Shown here in pieces: positions 4,560 through 47,522 of a stretch of DNA of 64,000 nt. Source of the stretch: Planctomycetaceae bacterium (GTDB taxonomy: Bacteria; Planctomycetota; Phycisphaerae; Tepidisphaerales; Tepidisphaeraceae); the NCBI GenBank assembly GCA_027487775.1, contig JAIYCY010000025.1:397692-461691 (forward strand), read 5' to 3'. Numbering within the stretch: the stretch's first letter is position 1; each line of letters starts with the position of its first letter. The position numbers and the translations under genes are program-made. A model generated the notes under the pieces. It saw nothing but the letters and a program-made list of their open reading frames with translations. It ran no database searches and was not told the DNA's origin.

Positions 4560-5438
4560 TTGATCGTCGATTGTCATACGCATGTCTGGCAGGATTCCGA
4601 TCAGCTCGGCTCGGTCGATCTCGGAGAGATGTCTGCCGAGGATCGCAAGGTCGCGCTGAGCAAAAGTCTCTCGGGCAATTCCCCGCGGGTCCTTCCCCCC
4701 GCCGATCCGGAGACTCATCGTCTGCACACCGCCGCCGTTGATCGTGCGATCGTCCTGGGCTTTCGTTCGCGTTATCTTGGGGCCACCGTTCCCAACGATT
4801 TCGTCTCCCGCTATGTCTCCGGCAGCCCTGATCGACTCATCGGTTTTGCCGGCATCGATCCGATGGAAGATTCCGCCCTCGACGATCTCGCCGTCGCGCG
4901 GGAAGAGCTCAAGCTCCGCGGAATCTCGATCAGTCCCGGCGGGCAGGACTTCCACCCCGCCAACAGCCGCGCCATGCGCGTCTACGACTACTGCAACACG
5001 CACAAGCTCCCCGTCGTCTTCCATCCCGGCGGGCTCATGAACCAGCAATCCAAGCTCGAATACTCCCGCGCGTTCCTCATCGACGAAGTCGCCCGCGCGT
5101 TCCCCCAACTCCGCATCGTCGTCGCCCAGATGGCACAGCCCTGGGTCGATGAATGCGTCATCCTCATCGGCAAACATCCCCACGTCTTTGCCGACATCTC
5201 AGGCCTGCTCATCCGACCGTGGCCCGCGTACAACGCGCTCGTCAATGCCCACGAGTATGGCGTGATCGACAAGCTCCTCTTCGGCTCCGATTTCCCCTAC
5301 ACCAGCCCCGCCGACTGCATCGAGAGCCTCTTCTCCATCAATCAGATGGTTCAGGGCACCAACCTCCCGGTCATCCCGCGTGAAGCGCTCCGCGGGATCG
5401 TCGAACGTGATTCGCTCCAACTCCTCGGACTCCAATAA
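4560..5438 (+). CDS. Amidohydrolase family protein (Amidohydro_2 type)
   Basis: This is a TIM-barrel metal-dependent hydrolase or decarboxylase of the amidohydrolase-related (ACMS decarboxylase-like) group. The metal-binding DCHTHVW motif is at the extreme N-terminus, VVFHPGG supplies a further histidine mid-protein, and LLFGSDFPYTSP near the C-terminus carries the conserved Asp. The 292-residue length from TTG 4560 fits the family, which starts right before the D-x-H-x-H strand. Earlier in-frame GTG/TTG codons (4473, 4476) would add a 29-residue non-conserved leader. The gene ends two bases before the GNAT gene, so the two are probably co-transcribed. The substrate is unknown. Confidence 0.85.
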   Translation: MIVDCHTHVWQDSDQLGSVDLGEMSAEDRKVALSKSLSGNSPRVLPPADPETHRLHTAAVDRAIVLGFRSRYLGATVPNDFVSRYVSGSPDRLIGFAGIDPMEDSALDDLAVAREELKLRGISISPGGQDFHPANSRAMRVYDYCNTHKLPVVFHPGGLMNQQSKLEYSRAFLIDEVARAFPQLRIVVAQMAQPWVDECVILIGKHPHVFADISGLLIRPWPAYNALVNAHEYGVIDKLLFGSDFPYTSPADCIESLFSINQMVQGTNLPVIPREALRGIVERDSLQLLGLQ

Positions 5439-44340: not shown

Positions 44341-44949
44341 TCAGGCTTTTCCGCGAGCGAGTTCGCGTTCGATTTCGCTTTCCAGCGCGTCCAGTTTGCC
44401 GAGTTCTGCCTGCTCGGCGGCGAGCACGTCGGCTTCGATCATGCGATCGATTTCCGCGTCGGCGACCTGGCTGCTTTGCCCTGCGCCTTGCGTGAGGCTC
44501 TGGCCGTTCGCACTGGTTTCCATGGAGTCGAGGAACAGGCCCATGCGTTCCTCGATGCTCTGGCTTTGGGTGACGGCCTTTTCCCATTCGACCTGTGTCT
44601 TGGTCAGATCCAGCTCGCCGAAGGTTTTGCCGATTTCCTCGGCGATGACGCTCATGCTGGTGGCGAATTGTCCGCTCGCACTTGCCTGCTTTTGCAGGAT
44701 GATCGCGCTGTTGATTGCGACGAGTTGCCGTTCGAGCATGCGTTTGATGGATGTCGTTTTCTTGAGCTGTTCGCGGATGAATTTGTATTGCTGATCGTCG
44801 CCGACTTTTTTGGCTTGCTGTGCGTTCTTGATGAACTGCTCGGTGAACTTGCCCTGTTCGGCGATCGATCGTTCGATGGCTTTGACTCCGCGGCGAATGA
44901 GCATTTCGCGCTCGATTCGACGTTCTTCCTTGCTCTTGAATAGTCCCAT
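44341..44949 (-). CDS. ESCRT-III/Snf7-like helical protein (CHMP-like), third gene of cluster
   Basis: The 202-residue protein is almost wholly helical. It begins MGLFKSKEER, like the MGLFGK start of eukaryotic CHMP3. Residues about 10-45 and 52-92 form a basic helical hairpin (KKVGDDQQYKFIREQLKKTT), and 95-145 a shorter helical pair. A Gln/Ser linker leads to an acidic C-terminal helix starting ADAEIDRMIEADV, where CHMP proteins carry their autoinhibitory and MIT-interacting helices. No enzyme motif exists. GGGAG seven bases before ATG 44949 supports the start. The best inference is a membrane-remodelling filament protein. PspA/Vipp1 is the known bacterial branch, but its hallmark N-terminal pattern is not obvious here. 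Confidence 0.6.
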   Translation of the reverse strand: MGLFKSKEERRIEREMLIRRGVKAIERSIAEQGKFTEQFIKNAQQAKKVGDDQQYKFIREQLKKTTSIKRMLERQLVAINSAIILQKQASASGQFATSMSVIAEEIGKTFGELDLTKTQVEWEKAVTQSQSIEERMGLFLDSMETSANGQSLTQGAGQSSQVADAEIDRMIEADVLAAEQAELGKLDALESEIERELARGKA

Positions 44950-44993
44950 GGTGTTTCTCCCGTGATCGGCTCAACTCGGCGTCGTCCAATTGG

Positions 44994-45077
44994 ATTGAGC
45001 GTTGCTCAAGTTCAATTGAGCGTTGCTCAAGTTCAATTGAGCGTTGCGTCAGTTCAATTGAGCATCGCTCAGCCTTG
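44994..45077. repeat. Tandem array, 21-bp unit, four copies
   Basis: Four contiguous units of about ATTGAGCGTTGCTCAAGTTCA fill the gap between the second and third ESCRT-III-like genes. The last, diverged copy overlaps the upstream gene's stop codon (45069-45071). Each unit holds a small palindrome, TTGAGCgtTGCTCAA, so transcripts could form serial hairpins. Confidence 0.9.
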
Positions 45078-45683
45078 CGACTTCGCGCTCATTTTTTCCC
45101 GAACAGCGGCTTCTGCGCTTTCCAGCGCTTCGTTCTCTTTCATTTCCCCGCGATCGAGCTTGTCCCAGTAGGCGAGCAATTCTCCGCCCGCCTCGCCGAC
45201 GCTGGACGAATCGAGCAGTGCCCGGTCTGCGGATTCTCCCATTTCCAGGAGCGCGTCGAGTCGCTCGGTGTACATTTCCTGTGTGACTGCGTCATCTTCG
45301 ATCATCGCGCCGAGCACTGCGAAATCTTTTTCGGTGATGTTCAATCGACCGAGCCCGCCGGCCATGCGGGATTTTTGCTCCTTCACCATGCGCATCCGGC
45401 CGACGGTGAGAAGTTCTTTGGTCCGGACGTTGAGTTCGCGGACGGCCATCAGTTGTTCGCGTGTTTTGAGTTCGAATTCGATGGCGAGTGCTTTTCGCAT
45501 CTCCGGCGATTTCTGACTTGCGCCTTGCTGAAAGATTTTCTGTTTTTGGGTTGAGGCGTTCTCCACCTTCTGCATCAGCTTATCCCGCGCCCGGCCGATC
45601 AAGATCTCCTCCTTGCGAAGCTCAGTGGGACTCAGCTCCGAAAGACTCTTGGTTCGTCCGAATAGTTTTTCGATCAAAGACAT
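45069..45683 (-). CDS. ESCRT-III/Snf7-like helical protein, second gene of cluster
   Basis: The 204-residue protein starts MSLIEKLFGRTKS, close to the MSLFGKLFG start of human CHMP4. It continues with a basic helical hairpin (about residues 20-52 and 60-106) rich in Arg and Lys, a mid helix ITEKDFAVLGAMIEDDAVTQ, and an increasingly acidic C-terminal third. No catalytic residues or signal peptide are seen. The plan parallels the neighbouring 202-residue protein without obvious identity, as expected for different ESCRT-III subunits. No ribosome-binding site is evident at ATG 45683. The gene lies 119 bp upstream of its partner, with a tandem repeat between. Confidence 0.55.
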   Translation of the reverse strand: MSLIEKLFGRTKSLSELSPTELRKEEILIGRARDKLMQKVENASTQKQKIFQQGASQKSPEMRKALAIEFELKTREQLMAVRELNVRTKELLTVGRMRMVKEQKSRMAGGLGRLNITEKDFAVLGAMIEDDAVTQEMYTERLDALLEMGESADRALLDSSSVGEAGGELLAYWDKLDRGEMKENEALESAEAAVREKMSAKSQG

Positions 45684-45785: not shown

Positions 45786-47267
45786 TCAATTTGCCTGCGG
45801 AGTGGGCTTCTTTTCGGGTACGGGCGGGAGCGGCGGGGCGGATTCTCGTTGCGGGTTGGCTGCGGTCGGTTGGTTTGATGCGGCAGTCGGTTGGGCGGAC
45901 GTTGTGTCGGCCTGTTTTGGGCTGACGTCTTTCATGAGTTCTTCGTAGAGGGCTTGTTCTTCGTCGGTCATGCCGGTGGTGGAGACCTGTCCGGTGAGTT
46001 CGCTGGCGACTTGTGCTTCGGCCTGCAGTTCGGCGAGGACTTCCTCGGCTTTGGCGGCGTATTCGGCCATGTCTTCGCCGGCGGGCAGTTTGATGCTGTT
46101 GCCCTGTTTGATGAGTTCGAGATTGTGCAGGTAACCGCCGGCCACATCGATTTGCTGGTTGAGCATTTGCAGCATTTGTGCTTTGCGTTCGATGTCCTTG
46201 CGGAGTTGGAGCATCTGGGTGGTGAGTCGGCGTCGAATGATGGTTGAATCATTCTTTTTGAATTGTTCTTTGAGATCGCCTTCATGATTTTCGAGGGCGA
46301 GCAGTTCGTCCTGGACGACGTCGCGTTGCTGTGTGATGGCGGCGCGTCGTTCGGAGAGGAATGCGACCTTTTTGTCGATCGGGTCTCCTCCGGTGAAGAT
46401 GGCTTTGAGCTTGTCGATCACGGGCATGGGTTTGGCTCCGGGCACGGTGGCGATGGCATCACGATACAACACGAGTCGCCCGTCGAATCGTTTGGCGGAG
46501 AGGCCTGGCGTTTCGGAGGCGACGGCTTTCAGTTCCCGCTCTATTTTATCCAAAGGCAGCCCCAAACGCGCGGCCAATCTTTCCGCACCGAGTCCGCCCG
46601 ATGCCAGTTCCATCTTCGACGAGGCGATCGCATCTCGGATCCGTCGTTTTTTTCCGTCATCCGGCTCGGGATCGAGGGCATCGAGGACGCCTTTGGTTTC
46701 AGGCGTGCCGTGGACAGTCCATCCGCCTGACGCGTTCGGTTCGACCAGAATGACAGTCCGCTCGCTCAATCGCTCGGCCAGCGCGAGCGTGTCGCGATCA
46801 AAGCCGCTGGTCGAGAGCAGCACGATCGTCTGCGGCACGCGTCGACCGGCCTTGCCTGCCGGCCCGGGAATCGCTGAAAGCATGGCACGAGCGCGTTTGG
46901 CATCGAGCGGACTTGGTTCTTTGCCGAGGATCAGATCATCGACCGGCGCGTGGGTGATCAACTTCACCTGACCGAGTAGTTTTTCGAAGACCAGCCAGCG
47001 TGTCTGCCGGAGTTCCACATCGACGCTCGGCAAGCCGGGCATGGCTCGCTGCAGGCCGAAATCACTCGAACCCAGCTCCATCATTCGGCGTTTGACCTCG
47101 GCGGACCGGTCGTTCTTGGCGACCACCTTGCGGTATTGCGTGACGGCCCGTCGACCTTCGGTGGTATCGACCACGAACCGACGATCGGTGAGCAAAGTCT
47201 CAAAGTGCCTTAGCAATTCGAGTTCACGCTGTTGATGCCATTGCGGGTCGCTGGACATGGGTGTCAT
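45786..47267 (-). CDS. Winged-helix plus Snf7-like fusion protein (CHMP7-like layout), first gene of cluster
   Basis: The 493-residue protein has four zones. Residues about 20-205 are mixed alpha/beta, including PQTIVLLSTSGFDRDTLALA, which loosely recalls Mrr-type nuclease folds without a clear active site. Residues 207-272 look like a winged helix (ASGGLGAERLAARLGLPLDK then RFDGRLVLYRD). Residues 283-450 are a long helical region with a basic hairpin (IIRRRLTTQMLQLRKDIERK) and an acidic end. The last 45 are Pro/Gln-rich. A winged helix followed by Snf7-type helices is the arrangement of eukaryotic CHMP7, so it could nucleate or recruit the smaller proteins. Start choice among ATGs 47267 and 47258 is open. 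Confidence 0.5.
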   Translation of the reverse strand: MTPMSSDPQWHQQRELELLRHFETLLTDRRFVVDTTEGRRAVTQYRKVVAKNDRSAEVKRRMMELGSSDFGLQRAMPGLPSVDVELRQTRWLVFEKLLGQVKLITHAPVDDLILGKEPSPLDAKRARAMLSAIPGPAGKAGRRVPQTIVLLSTSGFDRDTLALAERLSERTVILVEPNASGGWTVHGTPETKGVLDALDPEPDDGKKRRIRDAIASSKMELASGGLGAERLAARLGLPLDKIERELKAVASETPGLSAKRFDGRLVLYRDAIATVPGAKPMPVIDKLKAIFTGGDPIDKKVAFLSERRAAITQQRDVVQDELLALENHEGDLKEQFKKNDSTIIRRRLTTQMLQLRKDIERKAQMLQMLNQQIDVAGGYLHNLELIKQGNSIKLPAGEDMAEYAAKAEEVLAELQAEAQVASELTGQVSTTGMTDEEQALYEELMKDVSPKQADTTSAQPTAASNQPTAANPQRESAPPLPPVPEKKPTPQAN

Positions 47268-47522
47268 CAATAATGGGTGTCGTCAACAGGATCTGTGGAC
47301 CAAAATCTAGAGCATACAGCAAGGCCTGCGGACGCGTGGGCGAAAGTCGGGGATTCTCAAGGCACAAATCTCCAGCCACTTATCCCACACAACCCGCGTT
47401 GGGTGGGATTCTACCATGTTGGTGATGCGGGTTCGACTGGTCGGGTCGAATCCGTCGAACCGATCGAGCGTTTCGAGGTCGAGCGCTTCACGGTCGAGGC
47501 TTGTGAGGCTAGTGTTGCGTGC

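Follow-up and report, generated by a model that had tools for sequence, protein, structure and literature searches.

ESCRT-III-like proteins of a planctomycete gene cassette and a Vps4-like ATPase of the same genome

Whether bacteria can possess ESCRT-III subunits together with a Vps4-type ATPase is the question raised by two small genes, here called A and B, in a 64,000-nucleotide stretch of a Planctomycetaceae genome (the window). According to a 2024 survey, ESCRT-III with a Vps4-like ATPase is confined to archaea and eukaryotes, and a 2023 review describes bacteria as being without a clear Vps4 homologue (PMC7615534). The best explanation of the present data, to which we assign a probability of about 0.8, is that the window and an unlinked gene encode a bacterial ESCRT-III/Vps4 membrane-remodelling machine, made up of a co-polymer of A, B and a third protein, C, and of an ATPase.

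The cassette and its three proteins

A first-pass annotation had described A and B as two adjacent ESCRT-III-like subunits of different type. Both open reading frames are real and conserved, and they are indeed adjacent. However, the set comprises three subunits rather than two, as gene C, which lies directly upstream of B on the same strand and encodes a winged-helix fusion, had been missed (Table 1). The intergenic gaps are 102 nt between C and B, 119 nt between B and A, and 73 nt between A and an epimerase-like gene. A promoter scan found none, and the terminator-like matches were all on the other strand. Between B and A, at 44980-45070, a 21-bp unit, GCTCAATTGAACTTGAGCAAC, occurs about three times in tandem, and every copy has an inverted repeat within it; these units are possibly regulatory elements.

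Table 1. Genes of the cassette and features of their products (positions in the window)
Feature	Position	Strand	Remarks
Gene A, ESCRT-III/Snf7-superfamily subunit by profile and predicted fold, CHMP2-like best match	44341..44949	-	202 aa
Gene B, probable second subunit; profile kin of the ESCRT-III-like part of C	45069..45683	-	204 aa
Gene C, apparent fusion (alpha/beta domain, winged helix, ESCRT-III-like domain)	45786..47270	-	494 aa
A, N-terminal MGLFKS motif, membrane-insertion-like (putative insertion)	44932..44949	-	nearly invariant across phyla
A, C-terminal acidic helix, residues 164-201	44347..44460	-	MIM1-like in the family, degenerate here
C, N-terminal alpha/beta domain, residues 1-200	46671..47270	-	predicted model
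C, winged helix, residues 204-270	46461..46661	-	predicted model, Foldseek, Pfam scan of members
C, ESCRT-III-like domain, residues 282-449	45924..46427	-	Met282 nearly invariant; in other planctomycetes a separate gene begins at this point

The shared features that had been noted for A and B were borne out. In both proteins the first 100 residues are basic and the remainder acidic (A +10/-13, B +8/-10), and the same polarity is seen in the family means (A +10.5/-13.9, B +8.9/-9.6). Both begin with a hydrophobic or amphipathic stretch, MGLFKSKEERR in A and MSLIEKLF in B, and residues M1, L3, F4, K5 and S6 of A are invariant in 44 sequences ranging from planctomycetes to Clostridia. The two sequences are, as stated, clearly different, with no detectable similarity (hhalign E 0.21).

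Protein A is a member of the ESCRT-III/Snf7 superfamily as judged from sequence profiles and a predicted structure, which agree. Snf7 (PF03357) is the commonest Pfam family among A homologues, being matched by 14 of 44 members (best E 2.3e-6), and the homologue at locus L036, which the A of the window matches with an E-value of 4e-33, scores above the Pfam cut-off (27.8 versus 27.3 bits). The A of the window itself has no direct Pfam Snf7 match, and a search of its genome with the Snf7 family returned none at E 0.001, suggesting that this protein has diverged too far for the family model to recognise on its own; an NCBIfam search gave nothing useful. When the A profile was compared with all PDB sequences, the top match was CHMP2A (E 0.036), with residues 14-148 of A colinear with 11-141 of CHMP2A over 135 positions.

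The AlphaFold model of A (pLDDT 80.8) has helices at residues 7-49, 52-110, 116-148 and 164-201, the last being the terminal helix expected from the first reading of the sequence. In a Foldseek comparison of this model with 350,542 chains, the eleven best matches were all ESCRT-III (best E 0.07, none below 0.001), and the top of the list included CHMP2A, CHMP1B/IST1, CHMP3, CdvB, CdvB2 and Loki CHMP4-7. In VIA-align the leading match was an Asgard ESCRT-IIIB (Z 9.8 and rmsd 3.0 over 113 residues); Z values of 9-10 fall in the range that long helical hairpins reach as background. As BAR and bMERB domains score similarly, the fold alone would not settle the family of A, and these scores would also suit a different reading, in which the three proteins are scaffolds of coiled-coil or BAR-like type, unrelated to ESCRT-III, and the AAA protein is an unfoldase of the Cdc48 type that acts on them. 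Against that reading, sequence evidence that does not depend on the fold assigns A specifically to Snf7/CHMP, and the uniform top of the Foldseek list points the same way.

The C-terminal helix of A deserves separate mention. Its earlier description as having no exact MIM1 consensus applies to the whole family (0 of 44 members), yet a MIM1-like motif is present in most members. The form L-x-x-[R/E]-L-x-x-L-[K/R] occurs in 25 of 44 (0.06 in shuffled sequences) and 34 of 44 have it in a looser form (shuffled mean 0.7), both counts coming from related sequences and hence not being independent. The family motif resembles MIM1, with mostly Glu where MIM1 has Arg. It is degenerate in the A of the window and in its nearest relatives (L001-L005), and no ATPase gene is seen beside A at those loci. 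Asgard ESCRT-III subunits likewise carry imperfect MIMs (PMC7240154).

The best reading of protein C is that a winged-helix protein and an ESCRT-III-like subunit are fused in one chain. Its predicted model consists of the alpha/beta domain and the winged helix listed in Table 1, a short helix (284-293), a long hairpin (298-392) and two further helices, and Foldseek found winged helices among its matches. The hairpin was matched by VIA-align to Snf7, CHMP3, Vipp1 and ESCRT-IIIB, mixed with unrelated coiled coils. It superimposes on the Snf7 core with Z 10.6 and rmsd 1.0 over 87 residues, a score that unrelated coiled coils equal or exceed, and CT398/HP0958 coiled coils, which would fit a scaffold unrelated to ESCRT-III, head the list. 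Snf7 is again the commonest Pfam family among C members, weakly (5 of 31, best E 0.21). The first-pass annotation had likened the pair of proteins to CHMP2/CHMP3 versus CHMP4 subunits; with CHMP2A as the best PDB relative of A and one weak match of C to CHMP4B (E 0.41), this parallel is suggestive only.

The gene structure of C in other planctomycetes argues for the fusion, because there its parts are separate neighbouring genes. Met282 of C is conserved in 30 of 31 sequences. At seven loci (L033, L034, L066, L067, L071, L072 and L073) the best matches to C end at residues 257-289, and in most of them a gene for a separate small helical protein (X33a type) comes next; at L065 the upstream open reading frame stops at 4623 and the gene for the small helical protein starts at 4627. 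The profile of this small protein aligns with C from Met282 onwards (E 1.2e-4).

Protein B is related to the same part of C: the two profiles match with an hhalign probability of 95% (E 2.8e-8), and Met1 of B falls on Met282 of C. Beyond this, B could be matched to no known family: Snf7 is not among the Pfam families listed for 33 B members, and the B profile has no ESCRT-III match in the PDB, a finding that would also fit unrelated scaffolds. The membership of B in ESCRT-III, which we consider probable, therefore rests on C. Thus, of the claim that both small proteins are ESCRT-III-like, the half concerning A stands by sequence and fold, and the half concerning B stands solely through the match to the C-terminal part of C. 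Since A shows no clear hhalign similarity to B or C, A on the one hand and B and C on the other would be well separated branches, if both are ESCRT-III.

Two further observations concern C. First, its residues 1-200 (46671-47270) form a conserved alpha/beta domain with an ST-G-F-T-x-E motif, and one C member has a weak match to the inactive restriction-endonuclease-like family PF22722 (E 0.038). Second, a MIM2-like motif considered in the proline-rich tail of C (PPLPPVPEK in the window) was set aside as too weak, being found in 3 of 31 members versus 0.1-0.3 in shuffled sequences.

A Vps4-like ATPase outside the window

The window had been described as containing no AAA ATPase, and for Vps4-like proteins this is correct, as a genome-wide search placed none of its matches inside it. 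The accompanying suggestion that a remodeller must lie elsewhere also proved right: a MIT-like/Vps4-like AAA ATPase of 391 aa is encoded on another contig of the same genome (G000:C11:16384-17541, locus L044). This protein matches a Clostridial ATPase with an E-value of 7e-79. In Clostridia an AAA gene stands beside the A homologue (L038 and L041-L043), as it does at L034 and L036, and the L038 ATPase matches Pfam AAA and AAA_lid_3, Vps4_C above its cut-off, and MIT with E 2.8e-5 (24.6 bits versus a cut-off of 30). Across the Planctomycetota such ATPases often share an operon with A. Among the 32 close loci, about twenty have the ATPase gene downstream of A, and it is not there in L001-L005, the loci nearest to the window.

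By sequence, the ATPase family has a Vps4-type architecture, with a single AAA module, a MIT-like N-terminus, a Vps4_C-like end and Vps4 signatures. When the N-termini were scanned alone, Pfam MIT was found in 2 of 25 (best E 1.3e-6), and the N-terminus from the window's genome had no direct Pfam MIT match. The family profile of the N-terminus matched a chitin synthase chain, 2mpk (E 0.0015), and the MIT domain of VPS4B over its length (E 0.1), these matches being mixed with TPR and designed proteins. Vps4_C was matched by 22 of 25 members at E 1 or better (best 1.1e-6) and above the cut-off in 7 of 13 genomes; the ATPase of the window's genome has 14.0 bits at the expected place, below the cut-off of 21.3. 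The latter protein aligns with yeast Vps4 (reference sequence identical to PDB chain 5uie_A) over residues 15-353, MIT region included, at 35% identity. The pore-loop motif SKWxGE is present in 22 of 27 ATPases and ATNxPWxxD in 26 of 27; the genome's own ATPase has LSKWVGE and ATNVPWQLD, to be compared with VSKWMGE and ATNIPWQLD in yeast Vps4 and LTMWFGE and ATNRPDIID in the D2 domain of p97.

The AAA core of this ATPase scores about equally against p97 D2 and Vps4 (195 and 196 bits, respectively), which would favour a Cdc48-like unfoldase acting on scaffolds. In contrast, the family combines one AAA module with the MIT-like N-terminus and the Vps4_C-like end. Taken with the results for A, this makes the scaffold reading unlikely, and an ESCRT-III/Vps4 machine is preferred.

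A second AAA type, with a helical N-terminus, is found near A in three loci of the family f28 and in the G005 locus, and its members align to nearly full-length Vps4. Both types occur in L034, L035 and L071-L073, where they flank A, and each has a single AAA module. The ATPases also match the IetA models of PADLOC. Together with a patchy distribution (see below), these matches might suggest a defence or conflict system with ESCRT-like membrane remodelling. However, the part that is matched is mainly the generic AAA region, PADLOC recognises none of A, B and C, and the cassette is kept in most genomes of the order; we give such a defensive role very little credence.

In the proposed ESCRT-III/Vps4 machine, the C-B-A cassette would encode an ESCRT-III-like co-polymer. 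Protein C, with its alpha/beta domain, winged helix and ESCRT-III-like hairpin, would likely act as the nucleator or as a membrane or cargo adaptor, with a part like that of ESCRT-II or CHMP7, and B would likely be the second or bulk subunit. Protein A, CHMP2-like and with a MIM1-like C-terminal helix, would likely be a late subunit that recruits the ATPase, which is predicted to bind A via its N-terminal MIT-like domain. By pulling subunits from the polymer with ATP, the ATPase would cause the filament to constrict, bend or reseal the cytoplasmic membrane.

Comparison with known systems

The proposed machine shares several features with the archaeal and eukaryotic systems of ESCRT-III and Vps4/CdvC: subunits of the ESCRT-III superfamily, a winged-helix partner, adjacency of the genes, and an ATPase with a MIT-like N-terminus, a single AAA module and a Vps4_C-like end. 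SPFH-type proteins, encoded downstream in several of the planctomycete loci, are also partners in the archaeal Meth_adaptin ESCRT loci (PMC10936438). It differs from these systems in that the hosts are bacterial (Planctomycetota and some Clostridia), the subunits are very divergent, the MIM1-like motif mostly has Glu for Arg, and a winged helix and an ESCRT-III-like domain are fused in C. The ATPase is shorter than yeast Vps4 (437 aa), and its gene is unlinked in the window's genome. CHMP7 also has winged helices fused to an ESCRT-III domain. The two proteins are alike in that a winged helix precedes the ESCRT-III-like domain in one chain, whereas C has one winged helix, placed behind an alpha/beta domain, and other planctomycetes encode its two parts in separate genes that lie side by side.

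The cassette could also be a variant PspA/Vipp1 (phage-shock) system, that is, a member of the ESCRT-III branch already known in bacteria. The superfamily fold is common to both, and SPFH proteins accompany some systems of that kind, including PspA of Bacillus subtilis (PMC8581546). However, the PspA_IM30 domain (PF04012) had no match anywhere in the window's genome and 10 of 13 genomes with A have no match to it at E 0.001, whereas 9 of 14 control genomes do. Moreover, A members match Snf7 most often, and A is accompanied by further distinct subunits and by a MIT-like AAA protein. We therefore reject PspA membership, and a variant phage-shock system appears highly improbable. As no PspA-family protein was found, the C-B-A proteins and the ATPase may be the only ESCRT-III-type system of this genome.

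Vps4-like AAA proteins have been described in bacterial genomes by Ravi et al. in 2024 (PMC11237479). In those bacteria an unrelated TPR/6TM gene displaces Snf7, whereas the present system does have ESCRT-III-like subunits, and these are linked. The same authors report that some bacterial PspA and Snf7-clade proteins are encoded near AAA ATPases, and their text contains no mention of "planctomyc-". A literature search, with subscription papers and most preprints outside its scope, found no paper describing the planctomycete or the clostridial system. A linked set of several ESCRT-III-like subunits with a Vps4-like ATPase in bacteria devoid of FtsZ would mean that the history inferred for this machinery has to be revised, and would offer a simple setting for testing how ESCRT-III and Vps4 cut membranes.

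Distribution and possible cellular role

A search of genome contigs with A found 43 loci, mostly in MAGs labelled Phycisphaerae or Planctomycetota, together with six labelled Clostridia or Eubacteriales. By tblastn, B and C stand beside A in the order C-B-A at the 32 closest planctomycete loci, to the extent that the contigs cover them. It was proposed at first pass that a lack of co-occurrence of A and B across related genomes would speak against a common system. The two do co-occur: among 26 genomes of the window's order, A is present in 20, and B in the same 20 and one more (Fisher p 9e-5). When the phylum was sampled evenly, 43 of 244 genomes had A; none of these except the window's own is marked as the same class, which indicates a patchy distribution.

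In the phylum sample, A accompanies the ATPase in 27 of the 28 genomes that encode it, a further 16 genomes have only A, and 200 have neither (p 1e-23). Of these 16, twelve are members of a single family (f28), and the second AAA type stands near A in loci from four. Within the order the association is weaker: 16 genomes have both, four have A only, two have the ATPase only and four have neither (p 0.05); two of the four with A only are 58-60% complete. One genome of the window's family (G266, locus L074; 86% complete) keeps a Vps4-like ATPase and has no A or B match.

The C-B-A genes are also present in a genome of the window's family that consists of a single 7.2 Mb contig (G248, locus L068). 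This argues against contamination as their source, and it may mean that a cultivated representative exists. In the class Clostridia the system was found in 2 of 291 genomes and is thus rare.

What, then, might the machine do? No FtsZ match was found in any of the 26 genomes of the order, and in the Clostridia L038 and L039 the cassette lies just downstream of a gene that, by eye, we take to be ftsZ-like. Both facts could suggest a Cdv-like division machine that replaces FtsZ. However, five genomes that have neither A nor B (G245, G246, G251, G266 and G268) are also without FtsZ, and in the phylum sample 201 of the 244 genomes lack A and only 8 have any FtsZ-like match. As genomes without A mostly lack FtsZ too, the cassette cannot be a general substitute for it, and its distribution in the order and in the phylum sample gives that idea no support. 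A division machine in place of FtsZ is therefore rather unlikely, and for the proposed ESCRT-III/Vps4 machine we infer membrane repair or invagination as a likelier role than obligatory division. A broader picture can be offered tentatively, and we think it somewhat less probable than its contrary: an ESCRT-III/Vps4 system that is complete and recycled by ATP, including a winged-helix adaptor and an SPFH partner, might be old in part of the Planctomycetota and in some Clostridia, where it would drive membrane invagination, fission or division in FtsZ-free bacteria. ESCRT-III with Vps4 would then not be a monopoly of archaea and eukaryotes.

A few loci show unusual settings. A MAG labelled as Alphaproteobacteria (L015) carries a typical planctomycete C-B-A-AAA cassette, and is probably misbinned or mislabelled. 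In some Clostridia the pair of A and the ATPase adjoins SPFH proteins, and two of them have a cassette in the order SPFH, B-like, A and AAA (L038:1817-5588 and L039:2-3401). In L038 the ftsZ-like gene directly upstream is itself preceded by what is presumably an ftsA-like gene. Finally, the region downstream of A in L036 (5589-9565) encodes, as we read it by eye, a SHOCT-like start and a cysteine-rich Zn-ribbon-like stretch, followed by what we take to be an SPFH-like protein.
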